Source: Thiorhodovibrio winogradskyi
GTDB taxonomy: Bacteria > Pseudomonadota > Gammaproteobacteria > Chromatiales > Chromatiaceae
Length of the DNA: 64,000 bases
Direction: 5' to 3'
Assembly: GCF_036208045.1 (NCBI RefSeq)
Contig: NZ_CP121472.1
Location: 1,375,531-1,439,530, forward strand
In this document: piece by piece, positions 2,876 through 10,244 of the stretch
How positions within the stretch are numbered: the stretch's first letter is position 1
Layout: each line of letters begins with the position of its first letter
The notes under the pieces: generated by a model
Told to the model about the DNA's origin: nothing
The model's database searches: none
The model's input: only the letters and a program-made list of their open reading frames with translations
Program-made: the position numbers and the translations under genes

Positions 2876-3223
2876 CTAATTACATCTAAATCCTCCCACG
2901 CCATCTGAACGGCAATGTGTACCGTTGCTATTTCGCCAACCACCAGCACCATCTGAACGCGACCAAGATCCATCGCTGTGCCGTAATCCGCCAGCACCAT
3001 CGGAGCGGGAGTAGCTTCCGTCGCTATGTCTAAAACCACCAGCGCCATCTGAGCGCGAGTAGGTTCCATCGTTATGGCGAAATCCCCCAGCACCATCTGA
3101 TCGGGCTCCCATGCCATCACTGCATCGGTAGCCACCGGCTCCGTCTGATCGGCAGCTCTGTGCCTGCACTGTTGCAAGTGGAACCATCATCAGAAAAACA
3201 GTTAAACCAAATAGCCGAGCCAT
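2876..3223 (-). CDS. secreted 16-residue tandem-repeat protein
   Basis: A 115-residue protein with a clear Sec signal peptide (hydrophobic core LFGLTVFLMMVPLA, cleavage near VQA-QS). The mature part is almost entirely five and a half copies of a 16-residue repeat of the form RSDGAGGFRHSDGSYS, with Cys in the first and last units only (SCRSD, YRCSD, THCRSD, FRCN). The DNA repeat unit is 48 bases. An excellent Shine-Dalgarno site (AAGGAG) precedes the ATG. The Asp/Gly-rich repeats and terminal Cys pairs suggest a small periplasmic or surface protein held by disulfides, possibly binding metal; this is inference. The overlapping open frame at 2746-3177 is a by-product of the repeats. Confidence 0.7.
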   Translation of the reverse strand: MARLFGLTVFLMMVPLATVQAQSCRSDGAGGYRCSDGMGARSDGAGGFRHNDGTYSRSDGAGGFRHSDGSYSRSDGAGGLRHSDGSWSRSDGAGGWRNSNGTHCRSDGVGGFRCN

Positions 3224-4022: not shown

Positions 4023-4190
4023 GCCTATGGATATGTGGACGCGTCCTGCGGACCGGCCCGAGCACTGCGGGACGTGTGGACAACCCCGGTATTGCGCCGT
4101 TTCAGCGCCTTGGTTCTGCTTTGGACTGAAGGGCGGCGCAATACCGGGGTTGCCCACACTCTCGGGCCTCGCGCGCACATACCCACAGGC
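4023..4190. repeat. 168-bp imperfect inverted repeat (large hairpin)
   Basis: The inner arms at 4081-4099 and 4134-4152 are perfectly complementary over 19 bases and extend outward to 4074/4159 with one mismatch. Further out, 4054-4062 pairs with 4161-4169 in 8 of 9 positions and 4023-4043 pairs with 4170-4190 in 17 of 21. The loop is about 34 bases. A 15-base direct repeat (AACGTTTGCTAAGGA) occurs at 3854-3868 and 4001-4015. The rest of the gap 3753-4264 holds no convincing gene; open frames on both strands reflect the palindromic structure. A degenerate MITE-like element or a structured transcript is possible. Confidence 0.75.
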
Positions 4191-5825: not shown

Positions 5826-6368
5826 TCACAGCTGGTCTTTGCGCTCCATGACCTCGGCCTTGGCCGTCTTGGCCTGCTGCTTGCCCTCTTCACGCGCCTT
5901 GGCCCAGGCCGCGCGCATGTCCGCCTGGCTCATGGTCTGACCGCGCTCCTTTTTCTCCAGGTACAGATCCATGACCCGGCCGATGGCGTATGTCAGCCCG
6001 TAGACCAAGGGGATAGTGGTGAACCCAGCCAAGAAGGGTAGCCCGGTCTTGTAAAGACCGAGCGCAATCTGCTGGGCAATCATGCCAAGACCAACGACCC
6101 CGCCAATCTCAACCACCAGGTCTTTGGCTTCCTTCTCGGAGAGCGGCATGCCCCGGATGGCACTGAGCCGCGTGCCCATGTACGCCTGAATAGGCGTCAG
6201 CACAAAGATGTCAGCGAAGGGAATCGGCTGCACCGCGACAGCGGCGCAGGTGGCCGAGAAGATGTGAATGATGCGAGAACGTTTCTGATCGTCGGTCAGG
6301 TCGGTGCGATTCTCGATGTCCGTGACTTCACGCTGGATGCGCTGCTTTGCTGATTCGATGATGTCCAT
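5826..6368 (-). CDS. DUF697-like membrane protein
   Basis: A 180-residue protein starting at the ATG at 6368 (MDIIESAKQR). An N-terminal charged helix leads into a region like the C-terminal membrane domain of YcjF/Era-like GTPases (DUF697): IPFADIFVLTPIQAYMGTRL, then GGVVGLGMIAQQIALGL and PFLAGFTTIPLVYGLTYAIGRVMD. The C-terminus is a charged coiled coil rich in K, E and A. No GTPase motif is present, so only the membrane module exists here. An in-frame extension to 6455 lacks a better ribosome site. Confidence 0.65.
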   Translation of the reverse strand: MDIIESAKQRIQREVTDIENRTDLTDDQKRSRIIHIFSATCAAVAVQPIPFADIFVLTPIQAYMGTRLSAIRGMPLSEKEAKDLVVEIGGVVGLGMIAQQIALGLYKTGLPFLAGFTTIPLVYGLTYAIGRVMDLYLEKKERGQTMSQADMRAAWAKAREEGKQQAKTAKAEVMERKDQL

Positions 6369-6850
6369 AACAACACCAGAGTGGCTCCTGTTGCGGTAGA
6401 GACTCAGAGCACCGAGCCACTGCGACTCCAGCATTTTTCGCGACGTCCCAGCCAAAGTCTAGGCGAAGAAAACCCATGACGGCAAGAAAAATAGCACAGC
6501 GAGTGCCGACAACTCCTGTCGCGCTACCCCCTTGACAAGGCGGGAAATCGCCAACGGCGCCCGCCATTTGTAGGGAAATTCCCTACAAATGTACTCTTTT
6601 TAGAGATATTATATCCATCTCGTGGTTTGTTGGAGCGCATTGACCAGCCGCATAATTTATTGAGAAAACTTTTTGTCGCCGACTTGCCGTTCAGCCCATC
6701 AACTACCGCCGCTTGGGCAGCGGCGGTTTGCTGATCATCCGCATTCTGCGCAGCCGCGCAGTCGAACACGGGCATTTTTCGGCGAGCGCTGGGGGCGGGG
6801 CGGTGGCTGTCGGTCCACTGTTGTCAGTGACCGGTCCGGAGGGGTGAAGT
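6369..6850. other. intergenic region without a convincing gene
   Basis: About 480 bases between the leftward DUF697 gene and the rightward gene at 6851. Short open frames exist on both strands but lack ribosome sites and coding character. The notable content is the perfect palindrome at 6565-6591. The stretch 6595-6665 is AT-rich relative to its surroundings and could hold promoters for the divergent genes. Confidence 0.5.
6565..6591. promoter_or_regulatory. 27-base palindrome, candidate operator
   Basis: CATTTGTAGGGAA and its exact reverse complement flank a single central A, giving 13-base perfect arms. It sits in the divergent region about 200 bases ahead of the DUF697 gene and 260 ahead of the gene at 6851. 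It lacks a T-tract on either side, so an operator for a dimeric regulator is more likely than a terminator. The cognate regulator is unknown. Confidence 0.5.
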
Positions 6851-7132
6851 ATGACGTCGAAGACGAAGACCGAGACGAAGACGAAGTCCGAAGCCGCAGC
6901 CACTAACGTCACGCAGATGCCGCTCACCGTCGAGCGTGTCGCCACCTTCAAGACTCCTGATGGCAAGTTCTTCACCACCGAAGCCGAAGCCCTCATGCAC
7001 ATCGCCAAGGCGAAGTTCAGTGATCGCATTGAGGCCTACATCACCGCCAAAGGCGAGCAGCCCAAGGGCGTCGCCGGACGGGCGCGCAACATCATCGGTG
7101 ATTTCCTGGCTTGGGAAGAATCCCAGAAATAG
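6851..7132 (+). CDS. conserved small hypothetical protein
   Basis: A 93-residue soluble protein. The N-terminus is a Lys/Thr/Glu-rich tail (SKTKTETKTKSE) followed by a compact domain: VERVATFKTPDGKFFTTEAEALMHIAKAKFSDRIEAYI. A strong GGAGG site lies seven bases before the ATG. The KTPDGKFFTTEAEA pattern is reminiscent of small phage or accessory-island proteins, which matches the nearby element remnant, but I do not recognise the family. Confidence 0.6.
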   Translation: MTSKTKTETKTKSEAAATNVTQMPLTVERVATFKTPDGKFFTTEAEALMHIAKAKFSDRIEAYITAKGEQPKGVAGRARNIIGDFLAWEESQK

Positions 7133-7424: not shown

Positions 7425-7577
7425 ATGCCCCTCCCTAGCACACCGCAAACCGCCGCGCTTGCCTTCTGGCAGGGGTACTACGAGTACCTGGCTGGGTTTG
7501 CGGTGTGCCCCTATAAAGAGGGAGTGGAGGCTGATGCCTGGGGGCTGGGGTGGAGGGCTCAGGCGTCTGGCCGCTGA
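7425..7577 (+). CDS. RMF/CrpP-like small protein
   Basis: A 50-residue protein beginning at the ATG at 7425 (MPLPSTPQTAALAF). It matches the small ribosome modulation factor-like fold: GYYEYLAGFAVCPYKEGVEADAWGLGWRAQ resembles the RMF core with its G-x-CPY-x-G and W-x-x-GW pattern. E. coli RMF is 55 residues, so the size fits. RMF drives 100S ribosome dimer formation in stationary phase; relatives of this fold include antibiotic-modifying CrpP, so function is not certain. The 3' end overlaps the convergent BLUF gene by 19 bases. A longer frame from 7329 lacks family support upstream. Confidence 0.65.
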   Translation: MPLPSTPQTAALAFWQGYYEYLAGFAVCPYKEGVEADAWGLGWRAQASGR

Positions 7578-8458
7578 TGACGCGCACCGATGACTGTTTG
7601 GCGATCCATCAGCCAGTAGATCAGACCAAGCGCCAAGACCACGGCCGCTGTGGCGAGGATGTACATTGGCGTCAGCTTCTCGAAATCGAACACGATCACC
7701 TTTCGTGCGATGGCCATCAGCGCAGTGGCGATGACCAGCTTCACATGGACGACATCATCGCGCAGGTACAGAGTGATGTTGACGAAGATCTCGATGGCAA
7801 TCAGCACCGACAGGAAGGCACCGAAGATCACCACGATGTCGTTGATGCGAAGCTCGGTCACCGCAGGGACAAACAACTGGCTGTAGAGCGCATACCCCAC
7901 CTCCAACGTGCCCCAGACGATGGTAACCACCATCATGATAGCCAGTGCGCGCACTGACAGGCGGATGATGCGGTGCAGCACATTGATCATGGCGTCATCT
8001 TCATCGACGCCCAACTCGCTTTGTCCGGCGGCTTTAATGCGCTGTTTGCGGAAGTGATCCATCAAGCTCTGTACCACAATGCGGTGCTCACGCAGGTAGC
8101 CGGTTTCAAAATCACCTTCATGAAAGTCGTCCAACTCGGCTGTACTGGCAGCGCGCAGCGCACGCTCTGATACCTGCTGAAAGCCCATGCTCCAGTCTGC
8201 ATACTCACGCTTGGTGATCGCTTTGCGCTGGATGACATGCACGCCGGTGTGGCGCGGGTCTTGCTCGATGGTGTCGAGCAACTCGTCGATAACGCGCTCT
8301 TCGCCCTCGAGCACCTGCAAGAAGGTGCCGTTGCCGTAGAACAGCATCCCGGTCACGCCGATCTGCGGATTATGCTGGCGGCAGTACTGCAGCAGCTCCG
8401 TTAAGTCCCGCTTCGACATGGGCGCGGTCGCCGCGCTGATATAGACGAGCTGAATCAT
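7559..8458 (-). CDS. BLUF photoreceptor fused to PsiE-like membrane domain
   Basis: A 299-residue protein. Residues 1-95 are a BLUF flavin-binding blue-light sensor with all key residues visible: Tyr6, Asn30, Gln48 and the Trp89-Ser90-Met91 segment. A linker with a DFHEGDF stretch leads to a C-terminal PsiE (phosphate-starvation-inducible E) type module with about four membrane helices, including the family hallmark MAIARKVIVFDF. Start: the ATG at 8458 has GAGGA eight bases ahead; a TTG six bases earlier is less likely. Light would be sensed in the cytoplasm and passed to the membrane domain, whose biochemical role is unknown. Confidence 0.88.
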   Translation of the reverse strand: MIQLVYISAATAPMSKRDLTELLQYCRQHNPQIGVTGMLFYGNGTFLQVLEGEERVIDELLDTIEQDPRHTGVHVIQRKAITKREYADWSMGFQQVSERALRAASTAELDDFHEGDFETGYLREHRIVVQSLMDHFRKQRIKAAGQSELGVDEDDAMINVLHRIIRLSVRALAIMMVVTIVWGTLEVGYALYSQLFVPAVTELRINDIVVIFGAFLSVLIAIEIFVNITLYLRDDVVHVKLVIATALMAIARKVIVFDFEKLTPMYILATAAVVLALGLIYWLMDRQTVIGARHQRPDA

Positions 8459-8815
8459 CGGCAAGGTCCTCAGGCAAATACTTCACTGTTGCGCGGGTTG
8501 GGCTCAGGTAACGGCGCTGTCGGCGCGGAGAAGGGGACCGCAGCCAGGGTGCGTGCGGCTGATCCTAAGGTGGGTTGTTTACCGACCGAGTCAACTCCCC
8601 CATACCCGGGAACTCAAACCCCACCCCCCACTTCGGATTCCGTCCAAGCGCAATAGAGTCCCACCCTTTCCCCACCAGGCTCACGCCTGCAATGAGCAAG
8701 GGTGAGATGACCCAGAGGACAGCGGCCATCCCTTCCCACCAGACTGATCACCAGCCGCCCGGCCGCAACGAAGCCAGCCTCAGCGCGCCAAACCGCTGCT
8801 ACTGAGTGACTCATT
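8459..8815. other. intergenic region, no protein gene
   Basis: Between the BLUF gene and the hairpin-rich region there is no frame with a ribosome site or recognisable product. Overlapping short frames on both strands contradict each other. Local complementarity exists (for example CAGCC/GGCTG around 8534-8555 and CTCAC/GTGAG around 8680-8706), so the structured RNA proposed next may extend upstream. Confidence 0.5.
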
Positions 8816-9123
8816 GCGCCCGCTGGGCGCGACGTGAAAAGTGGAGGCAGAACAAGCGCTCAACAGCCATCGCCTGGCTGCCTGCACCCAACCCGCCGGT
8901 GCGCCCGCAGACCAACCCTCGCTGCACGCAGGAGAGCGCCCGTTGGGCGCGTGGTGGGTGGGGCTCCCCGAGCTTGATGACGACACACCCCATTGTCGCT
9001 GCGCATCGAGGCGATGCGTCAGCAGCAACGTCTGGGTAACCCGAGTGGCATCGCGCCACTGTCTCGGAAGACACCCAGGCGTCAGCAAAGGCTGTGGTCA
9101 CCGCCATGAAGGCGGACCACAGC
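8816..9123 (+). ncRNA. candidate structured RNA upstream of csrA-like gene
   Basis: A chain of strong hairpins with no protein coding sense. The best are 8998-9023 (11 pairs with one bulged T, loop AGG); 9028-9037 with 9073-9082 (10 pairs, one G-U) enclosing 9041-9045/9063-9067 and TGGC/GCCA; and 9091-9098 with 9116-9123 plus 9101-9105/9111-9115 (loop ATGAA). Upstream, the same stem GCGCCC/GGGCGC occurs twice, at 8816-8830 and 8936-8950, with CAGCC/GGCTG at 8864-8880 between. No T-tract follows, so the structure may continue into the csrA-like leader. Strand is inferred from the downstream gene. It is not tmRNA, 6S or RNase P RNA as far as conserved motifs show. Confidence 0.5.
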
Positions 9124-9148
9124 AACATCCCACCGTTAGACCATCACC

Positions 9149-9160
9149 ATGGAGGGCCAT
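9149..9160 (+). promoter_or_regulatory. Shine-Dalgarno hairpin of csrA-like gene
   Basis: ATGG-AGGG-CCAT forms a short stem-loop that holds the GGAGG ribosome site, eight bases before the ATG at 9164. CsrA proteins bind GGA in hairpin loops, and many csrA genes are self-repressed at such a site. Autoregulation is inferred from this arrangement. Confidence 0.45.
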
Positions 9161-9163
9161 CAC

Positions 9164-9499
9164 ATGCCCAATACACCGCAAACCAACGACAAACCCCGCT
9201 CAGTCGGGCTGATCCTTACGCGCAGACCCGGCGAATTGATAATGCTCGAGTTACCCGAGGACCTCGGCGGCCATCGCGTACAGATCAGCTGCGTGGCCAT
9301 TGACAGAAACCAAGTCAAAATTGTTATCAGAGCGCCGAACGACTGGAATATCTATCGAGGAGAGCTGCGCGGTGAGTACGTCGACACTGGCGTCGAAGCA
9401 CCCGAGACTGACGACGAAACCCAAGAACCAGGGGTAACATCTGACAGGCAGCAGATCATCATCCGCACCCGCCCGCGTCGCCGGAGGAAGCAGTCATGA
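9164..9499 (+). CDS. CsrA-like RNA-binding regulator with extended tail
   Basis: A 111-residue protein. Residues about 15-70 match CsrA: LILTRRPGELIML corresponds to the conserved first strand, RNQVKIVIRAPNDWNIYRGEL to the last strands and the key RNA-binding Arg. Ordinary CsrA is about 60 residues, so this one has a 14-residue N-terminal extension and a 40-residue acidic then Arg-rich tail (RPRRRRKQS). The ATG at 9164 is preferred over 9149 because GGAGG is eight bases upstream. The stop overlaps the next start (ATGA), so the DUF4224 gene is translationally coupled. Its setting beside DUF4224 and a tRNA suggests an element-borne copy rather than the housekeeping csrA. Confidence 0.8.
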   Translation: MPNTPQTNDKPRSVGLILTRRPGELIMLELPEDLGGHRVQISCVAIDRNQVKIVIRAPNDWNIYRGELRGEYVDTGVEAPETDDETQEPGVTSDRQQIIIRTRPRRRRKQS

Positions 9500-9759
9500 A
9501 CGAGGAACCTTTCTTCCTGACCGACGAAGACATTGCCGACTTAACCGGCTATGTCCGCGTCGACAAACAACGTGAGCATCTGCGCGAACTCGGTATCCCG
9601 TTTTGCCCGGACAGGAAGGGGCGGCCACGGGTGCCGAGGAACGCCTTCCGCCTGGTCGCCATCCCCCAGCGGTTCCGCATCATTGAAGGGGATGTCGAGT
9701 ACCGCATGCCTTATCCCTTGCCGCCAAGGCCTAAAGGAAGTGACGATACAGGACCATGA
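9496..9759 (+). CDS. DUF4224 domain protein (integrase-associated)
   Basis: An 87-residue protein with the DUF4224 pattern FLTDEDIADLTGYVRVDKQREHLRELGIPF followed by GRPRVPRNAF. DUF4224 genes typically lie directly before a tyrosine integrase in prophages and integrative elements and may act like excisionases or integrase accessory factors. Start overlaps the csrA-like stop by four bases (ATGA), and its own stop overlaps another ATGA at 9756. The expected integrase is not found downstream. Confidence 0.78.
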   Translation: MNEEPFFLTDEDIADLTGYVRVDKQREHLRELGIPFCPDRKGRPRVPRNAFRLVAIPQRFRIIEGDVEYRMPYPLPPRPKGSDDTGP

Positions 9760-9842
9760 GGGGCAAAATTAGACGTGACGAAGTCCGGCAAACGCGGTCT
9801 CGTCGGCGGGGTACGACGTCTGATTTTCCAAGCGTTGCTTGA
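9756..9842 (+). pseudogene. short coupled ORF, possible integrase remnant
   Basis: The DUF4224 stop overlaps an ATG at 9756 in the ATGA arrangement, exactly where an integrase gene would begin. The frame is basic (MRGKIRRDEVRQTRSRRRG) but stops after 28 codons, and nothing between here and the tRNA at 10119 resembles a tyrosine recombinase. I read it as the stub left by deletion or decay of the integrase. A GTG frame at 9775-9915 is an alternative without support. Confidence 0.35.
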
Positions 9843-9859
9843 AGAGCTGATAAGGTGGA

Positions 9860-9879
9860 GAAGCCTCGGCGGAGGCTTC
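9860..9879. terminator. 8-bp stem-loop after element genes
   Basis: GAAGCCTC-GGCG-GAGGCTTC is a perfect 8-base stem with a four-base loop, placed after the csrA-like/DUF4224 run. No T-tract follows, so if it terminates transcription it does so weakly. Confidence 0.35.
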
Positions 9880-10026
9880 GCCGGGGCTGGTGGCCACTCG
9901 AACCAAAAAGCATGAACGTCCGCTCAGAGACGCTCTACAGTCGCCGTCAAAAGTGTAGCTAAGAGTGTAGATTGACTCTGGCTCACCTGAATTATTTCTA
10001 ATTTAAACAGTTGTTTATATCTTTTT

Positions 10027-10119
<93 letters not shown>

Positions 10120-10244
10120 GGAAATTCTGCCAACCTGGCCCTGGCCCCTGGGAAGGGCACTGTTGCCGCGGGCAGGTTCAAGGTCGCGTAGGATACGGGA
10201 TGTCGGCCGATCTCGCAATCAAACCTTGGAATGGAGGTATAAGC

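Follow-up and report, generated by a model that had tools for sequence, protein, structure and literature searches.

A conserved, hairpin-rich region upstream of a csrA-like and excisionase-like gene pair in Thiorhodovibrio winogradskyi

We analysed a stretch of 64,000 nucleotides from the genome of Thiorhodovibrio winogradskyi, hereafter the window, in which a noncoding region dense in hairpins is followed by a gene for a CsrA-like protein and a gene for a DUF4224/excisionase-like protein (Table 1; all positions are those of the window). That a csrA-like gene adjoins the hairpins, as an earlier note on this DNA had claimed, is borne out by a match to the CsrA profile PF02599 at 9164-9499. The start codon of this gene is assumed to lie at 9164, with 9149 as a possible alternative, and its stop codon overlaps the start of the DUF4224 gene in an ATGA.

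Table 1 The hairpin region, its predicted structures and the genes that follow it.
Feature	Position	Strand	Remarks
6-bp hairpin, repeat copy 1	8816..8830	.	Sequence GCGCCCGYTGGGCGC
Conserved noncoding leader	8894..9163	+	Precedes the csrA-like gene; differs from the sister species (G001) by 16 substitutions over 268 sites
Small predicted hairpin CGC-AGGAGA-GCG	8927..8938	+	GGA 8931-8933 in a 6-nt loop; three closing pairs
6-bp hairpin, repeat copy 2	8936..8950	.	Sequence GCGCCCGYTGGGCGC, as at 8816-8830
Stem-loop 1	8998..9023	+	11 pairs, one bulge, -15.6 kcal/mol
Stem-loop 2	9028..9082	+	10 outer pairs including one G-U, 9 inner pairs, -27.7 kcal/mol
Stem-loop 3	9091..9123	+	13 pairs, -22.3 kcal/mol; end lies 40 nt 5' of the csrA-like start codon
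GGAGGG Shine-Dalgarno-like sequence	9151..9156	+	Predicted mostly paired; GGA within ATGGA; identical in three leaders
CsrA-like protein	9164..9499	+	111 aa; PF02599, 49.4 bits against a cut-off of 27
DUF4224/excisionase-like protein	9496..9759	+	87 aa; PF13986, 42.1 bits against a cut-off of 22
tRNA-Ser (GGA)	10029..10119	-	Presumed integration target; next after DUF4224

The CsrA-like protein misses the NCBIfam cut-offs for canonical CsrA (NF002469, 36 bits against 73; TIGR00202, 35.4 against 70.1), and as these are equivalog cut-offs we regard it as a divergent member of the family and not as an orthologue. Alignment to a solved CsrA reveals 7 inserted residues and a tail, about 40 residues long, with a basic end, and an AlphaFold model of the protein was too poor for a fold search (pLDDT 57). 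The same alignment places identical letters at the positions taken as L4 and R44 (in LILTRR and YRGEL). Passages of PMC7652899 name both residues as critical for RNA binding by CsrA. The canonical csrA of the same genome is a separate gene about 390 kb away, beside tRNA-Ser(GCT) (G000:C1:996142, where G000 is the genome of the window).

Beyond its PF13986 match, the DUF4224 protein resembles PHROG excisionases (phrog_1266, 2.8e-12). Among eight distant DUF4224 loci, taken from family and class samples, a Phage_integrase domain lies right behind DUF4224 in five (E 2e-4 to 4e-18; above the Pfam cut-off in three of the five); the comparison with this domain covers these five and not loci L046, L053 and L054, of which L046 looks spurious, with three stops within the match. 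A csrA-like gene was found in none of the 3-kb loci around these eight (tblastn, E 0.01). Behind the DUF4224 gene of the window there is no integrase-sized open reading frame on the + strand from 9759 to the tRNA gene. A paralogue of the module in the same genome retains a fragment of a tyrosine-integrase C-terminus behind its DUF4224, and this C-terminus, used as a query, has no match in the window. Since no integrase follows and a tRNA-Ser gene comes next, we read the csrA-DUF4224 pair, from its gene content and order, as the probable relic of a recombination module. The csrA copies of the paralogue and of a related genome (G002) are broken. DUF4224 adjoins the same tRNA-Ser(GGA) in G002; the sister species has a 7-kb tRNA-Ser(GGA) locus with no match to the element and carries its csrA-DUF4224 copy elsewhere, beside what by eye resembles the 3' part of another tRNA, at a place where ARAGORN predicts no complete tRNA.

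Several further observations concern the surroundings of the module. The stretch from the end of DUF4224 to the 3' end of the tRNA-Ser (9737-10040) recurs as an 80% copy elsewhere in the genome (G000:C1:5399404, L089), by eye before an integrase-like gene, and as a partial copy of 73% at tRNA-Ser(TGA) (L090); these copies are perhaps the ends of related islands. The tRNA-Ser(GGA) and tRNA-Ser(GCT) genes are neighbours in the sister species (L092 2438-2898 and L091 2886-2976) and about 390 kb apart in the window genome, and this changed spacing suggests a rearrangement at tRNA-Ser genes. A 93-aa protein encoded at 6851-7132, with a weak match to phrog_4429 (E 0.012), accompanies csrA-DUF4224 in the window, the sister species and the paralogue, and is likely part of the element. 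The block 8587-8756 has an 81% identical counterpart in the paralogue (L008), and a 50-nt part of it recurs at 92% in L009, where an integrase, a tRNA-Leu and a gene resembling SSB by eye are also present; read on the minus strand, the block spells NPKWG..F.FPGMG or something near it in the window and in both loci.

All five hairpins described in the earlier note lie where it had placed them. The two short upstream ones belong to a 21-nt direct repeat (8816-8836 and 8936-8956, 86% identity, spacing 120); their exact 15-mer occurs twice in the whole genome, both times in the leader region, and recurs once, with one mismatch, in the paralogous leader. Folding of the region as a whole is strong on either strand, the fold of 8800-9160 being better than those of 100 out of 100 dinucleotide shuffles on each (z -3.3 on +, -2.8 on -). 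When the whole 64 kb was scanned in 130-nt windows with correction for G+C, the segment 8991-9120, which omits the last 3 nt of stem 3, ranked 16th of 6387 on the + strand and 17th of 6387 on the - strand, that is, in the top 0.3%. Clearly stronger than 8991-9120 are windows 4031-4071, which give the best folds of the entire 64 kb on each strand; these lie around an inverted repeat at 4074-4159 with 26-nt arms that are 96% complementary and a 34-nt spacer. Given its rank and the similar folding of both strands, the segment 8991-9120 is exceptional without being unique, and shows no strand preference. The scan windows that contain the upstream 6-bp hairpins are unexceptional (start 8811, rank 5697 on + and 578 on -; start 8931, rank 725 on + and 1155 on -), and the 8936-8950 hairpin is absent from the structure predicted when the leader is folded as a whole, its 5' arm being paired elsewhere. 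The earlier note had taken the near-perfect stems as a sign of selection on RNA; because folding on the + and - strands is about equal, the stems by themselves do not point to RNA. At 8890-8960, a branched fold that is closed by a long stem and contains the GGA hairpin 8927-8938 is predicted alike in the window and in the sister species (-34.1 and -38.9 kcal/mol).

The leader is less diverged than silent sites nearby. Compared with the sister species, the blocks further upstream carry 35 substitutions in 122 sites (8465-8586), 23 in 169 (8587-8756) and 26 in 137 (8757-8893), and the leader, the limits of which were picked after viewing the alignment, is less diverged than the first of these (Fisher p 5e-9), than the synonymous sites of the flanking BLUF gene (65 of 212 changed, p 8e-13) and than those of csrA (13 of 80, p 0.009). 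Synonymous divergence (dS) is 0.40 in the BLUF gene, 0.43 in the first 48 codons of DUF4224, 0.52 in the gene at 5826-6455 and 0.18 in csrA; the silent sites of csrA are thus less diverged than those of the BLUF gene (p 0.017), so the leader may owe some of its low divergence to local recombination. The proteins themselves were kept, as indicated by dN well below dS, both for csrA (0.041/0.184) and for codons 1-48 of DUF4224 (0.037/0.426); the C-terminal part of DUF4224 is strongly diverged between the window and the sister species. Over 8757-9163, the hairpins at 8816 and 8936 and stems 1 and 3 have changed at 2 of 89 sites against 40 of 316 other sites (p 0.003), but this difference is gone within the conserved leader, where stems stand at 2 of 74 and the remainder, with which stem 2 is counted, at 14 of 194 (p 0.25). 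To within 1-2 nt, the window, the sister species and the paralogue agree in the position of stem 3, the Shine-Dalgarno sequence and the distance to the start codon. The flanking gene at 7559-8464 encodes a BLUF blue-light sensor fused to a PsiE domain and adjoins the leader in the sister species too; no such gene is among the open reading frames at the corresponding place in the paralogue.

Conservation of the pairing is another matter, and the tests of it rest on the three leader copies found. In the sister species stem 3 is identical and stem 1 keeps all 11 of its pairs, with two substitutions that both lead to G-U on the + strand, but stem 2 loses four or five of its 19 pairs, depending on the alignment; the paralogue lacks stems 1 and 2 or has them in broken form, and in its stem 3, where one change is compensatory, 10 of the 13 pairs remain. 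We compared these outcomes with random placement of the same mutations. The fold of the sister species was reached by 12.5% (+) and 43% (-) of placements for 8996-9125, by 20% and 51% for 8810-9125, by 32% and 41% for 8894-9163, and by 16% and 21% for stem 2 alone; for stem 1 alone, 87% (+) and 97% (-) were at least as stable, meaning that stem 1 lost more stability than most. For stem 3, 10 of 13 pairs were reached by 49% of simulations and a compensatory pair by 28%, and the covariation score was attained in 161 of 500 trials with shuffled partners. With only three sequences, and with null models that explain the retained pairing, selection on RNA pairing, for which the earlier note had argued, finds no support from these copies and is not contradicted by them. 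Preservation of the stems through compensatory changes likewise fails for stem 2 and, in stem 3, comes down to the one pair expected in 28% of simulations by chance.

The five GGA motifs to which the earlier note had drawn attention exist (8843, 8931, 9066, 9114 and 9151), but five in 351 nt is the background density (mean 4.9). According to passages of PMC7652899, CsrA sites are single-stranded GGA in hairpin loops, often of six nucleotides, on short stems, and a paired GGA has lower affinity. The GGA at 8931 lies in such a predicted 6-nt loop (Table 1), in a hairpin that excludes the 8936-8950 hairpin of the earlier note; in the sister species it is predicted in a 4-nt loop, GGAG, closed by 4 bp. 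Its probability of being unpaired is only about one half. In a background of 750 equally long windows, 23% hold at least one hairpin-loop GGA and 5.6% hold one in a loop of 6 nt; of all GGA there, 5.7% lie in hairpin loops. For the GGA at 9114 complete pairing is predicted and for those at 8843 and 9066 partial pairing, and long stems 1-3 have no GGA in their loops, making these stems an unlikely place for a putative CsrA binding site. The only ANGGA of the region is the ATGGA of the Shine-Dalgarno sequence, the same in all three leaders, although a Shine-Dalgarno sequence would be kept anyway. Binding of the leader by the CsrA-like protein, as the earlier note proposed, is therefore possible on these sequence grounds, weakly favoured by the predicted loop at 8931 and the GGA in the Shine-Dalgarno sequence and disfavoured by a background motif count and by loops that are common by chance.

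Other identities of the hairpin region were considered and set aside. Among Rfam families, the gathering score was reached only by the tRNA; no CsrB/CsrC/Rsm-type family matched, and a search of 8460-9260 at E 5 returned one match far below the gathering score. A CsrB-like sponge would have too few loop GGA, with one of five wholly in a hairpin loop and the count at background. Against an intrinsic terminator, both candidates in 8400-10150 lie outside 8800-9160, and no T run follows the stems. The region is not a dispersed REP-like repeat, since 8960-9160 matches itself, 68 nt of the paralogue and five chance-level hits of 16-22 nt (E 0.28-0.96). In 8600-9045 and 9078-9163, on either side of the stretch between the two indels, substitutions analysed in six frames are not in excess at third positions, which speaks against a hidden protein there. 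No sigma-70-like promoter was found in 8400-10150.

The gene pair has a narrow distribution. The DUF4224 profile matched 6 of 210 family genomes, three of them (one genus) closely, and 6 of 369 class genomes including that of the window; the csrA-DUF4224 pair was confined, within the 210 family genomes, to three species of one genus, and intact copies were found in the window and the sister species only. Searches with the csrA protein matched 31 of 96 family genomes at E 0.001, giving 35 matches, 30 of them with loci, of which the 27 outside the genus were read as canonical CsrA; in the 369 class genomes, at E 5e-6, they returned the window genome and one canonical csrA. A covariance model of the leader (R1) run against 194 family genomes recovered the window, the sister species, the paralogue and a weak hit in G109 (E 0.045, 20.9 bits) that we take as chance. 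The plasmid and phage collections held no DNA match to 8590-9170 and no DUF4224 match, and the csrA protein had one weak plasmid match, in Planctopirus, annotated as a carbon storage regulator; scans of viral and genome contigs with csrA or DUF4224 gave no match.

The explanation we prefer, with about an even chance of being right, is that the hairpins are part of a conserved 5' regulatory leader of a relic two-gene csrA-excisionase operon. The leader would be the promoter region and/or the 5' UTR, on the + strand, of an operon made up of the csrA-like and DUF4224 genes, and the operon would be the remnant recombination module of an island inserting at tRNA genes. Most likely the leader would hold the csrA-xis transcript in a structured state; stem 3, together with weaker pairing over the Shine-Dalgarno sequence, would limit translation of csrA, and the overlapping ATGA would cause translation of the excisionase to be limited too. 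Transcription of the leader, formation of the stems and control of translation by them are thus what we infer from this arrangement. The CsrA-like protein might also regulate its own synthesis, through putative sites at the GGA of the hairpin loop (8931) and that of the Shine-Dalgarno sequence (9151). A bolder version, in which the element would govern its own excision post-transcriptionally because its CsrA-like protein, translated in overlap with the excisionase, binds these two GGA and sets the amount of excisionase, so that the leader would act as an RNA switch between staying and leaving, seems to us quite improbable.

One may postulate instead that the hairpins act at the level of DNA, as inverted repeats for a repressor, excisionase or relaxase or as the operator or transfer origin of a lost element, with RNA folding incidental. 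We regard this as unlikely, if deserving of serious attention: the two strands fold about equally, the sequence is conserved and the pairing not demonstrably so, the module belongs to an integrative element, and the direct repeat of the upstream hairpins recurs in the paralogue as one hairpin with a single mismatch. Against it stand the nearly fixed position of stem 3 relative to the csrA start codon and the two stem 1 substitutions, both G-U on the + strand, which would be A-C on the other strand and are a weak sign of RNA.

It is also conceivable, if less probable still, that the palindromes are functionless G+C-rich sequences in a decaying element, their low divergence being due to local gene conversion or a slow-mutating patch. 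The rank of only 16-17 in 6387, the absent integrase, the broken csrA copies of the paralogue and G002, the low divergence of csrA silent sites, a fold retained in the sister species no better than at random and block limits set after viewing the alignment are all compatible with such decay. Difficult to reconcile with it are the contrast between 16 of 268 sites in the leader and 35 of 122 further upstream, flanking genes that both have dS of about 0.4, and the low dN of csrA and of the start of DUF4224. Least probable, in our estimation, is that the adjacent CsrA-like protein binds the region as a CsrB-like sponge or as an autoregulatory RNA. That protein does carry the RNA-binding residues, the GGA at 8931 is in a predicted loop here (of 6 nt) and in the sister species, the ATGGA in the Shine-Dalgarno sequence is the same in three copies, and GGA hexaloops on short stems are preferred CsrA ligands in the account of PMC7652899 that we draw on; yet the GGA count is that of the background, the single hairpin-loop motif among the five has a counterpart in 23% of background windows (5.6% for a 6-nt loop) and is unpaired with a probability of about one half, the motif at 9114 is wholly and those at 8843 and 9066 are partly paired, the three long stems lack loop GGA, and Rfam gives no match.

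CsrA/RsmA homologues are documented on plasmids, phages and Legionella islands in passages of PMC9928087, PMC7366521 and PMC3864950, and RsmQ of plasmid pQBR103, phage csrA genes and CsrT and LvrC of Legionella islands resemble the present case, as described there, in that a csrA-domain gene sits on a mobile element apart from the canonical csrA; the protein studied here differs from these in its 7-residue insertion, its tail of about 40 residues and the overlap of its gene with an excisionase-like one. The excerpted accounts of Dichelobacter elements, islands beside the chromosomal csrA and tRNA-Ser (PMC7366521), and of Stenotrophomonas GI_4, an IME-like island by tRNA-Ser with csrA near recX-recA-lexA (PMC13310844), likewise have an integrative element with csrA close by, and in GI_4 also tRNA-Ser, but here csrA is the element's own divergent copy and not the genome's canonical one. 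DUF4224 (PF13986) excisionases paired with tyrosine integrases share with our protein the profile and the PHROG excisionase matches; here, however, no integrase lies behind and a csrA-like gene lies in front, an order seen in 0 of the 8 distant loci. Leaders of the glgC type that CsrA represses, as outlined in PMC7652899, also combine a GGA in the Shine-Dalgarno sequence with an upstream GGA in a predicted hairpin loop, whereas here some 220 nt separate the loop GGA from the Shine-Dalgarno sequence, and the stem beside that sequence has no loop GGA.

A csrA gene overlapping an excisionase gene, behind a conserved leader, would link such a protein directly to mobility. The available portions of the literature on CsrA with excisionase and integrase describe no csrA-excisionase pair, which is no proof of its absence in print, and the papers returned for DUF4224 are, by title and the start of the abstract, concerned with other matters. 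As no integrase follows the pair in the window, the module there would have to be viewed as one of gene expression. Elsewhere in the window, the open reading frame at 2876-3223 contains tandem SRSDGAGGFRHSDG-type repeats.
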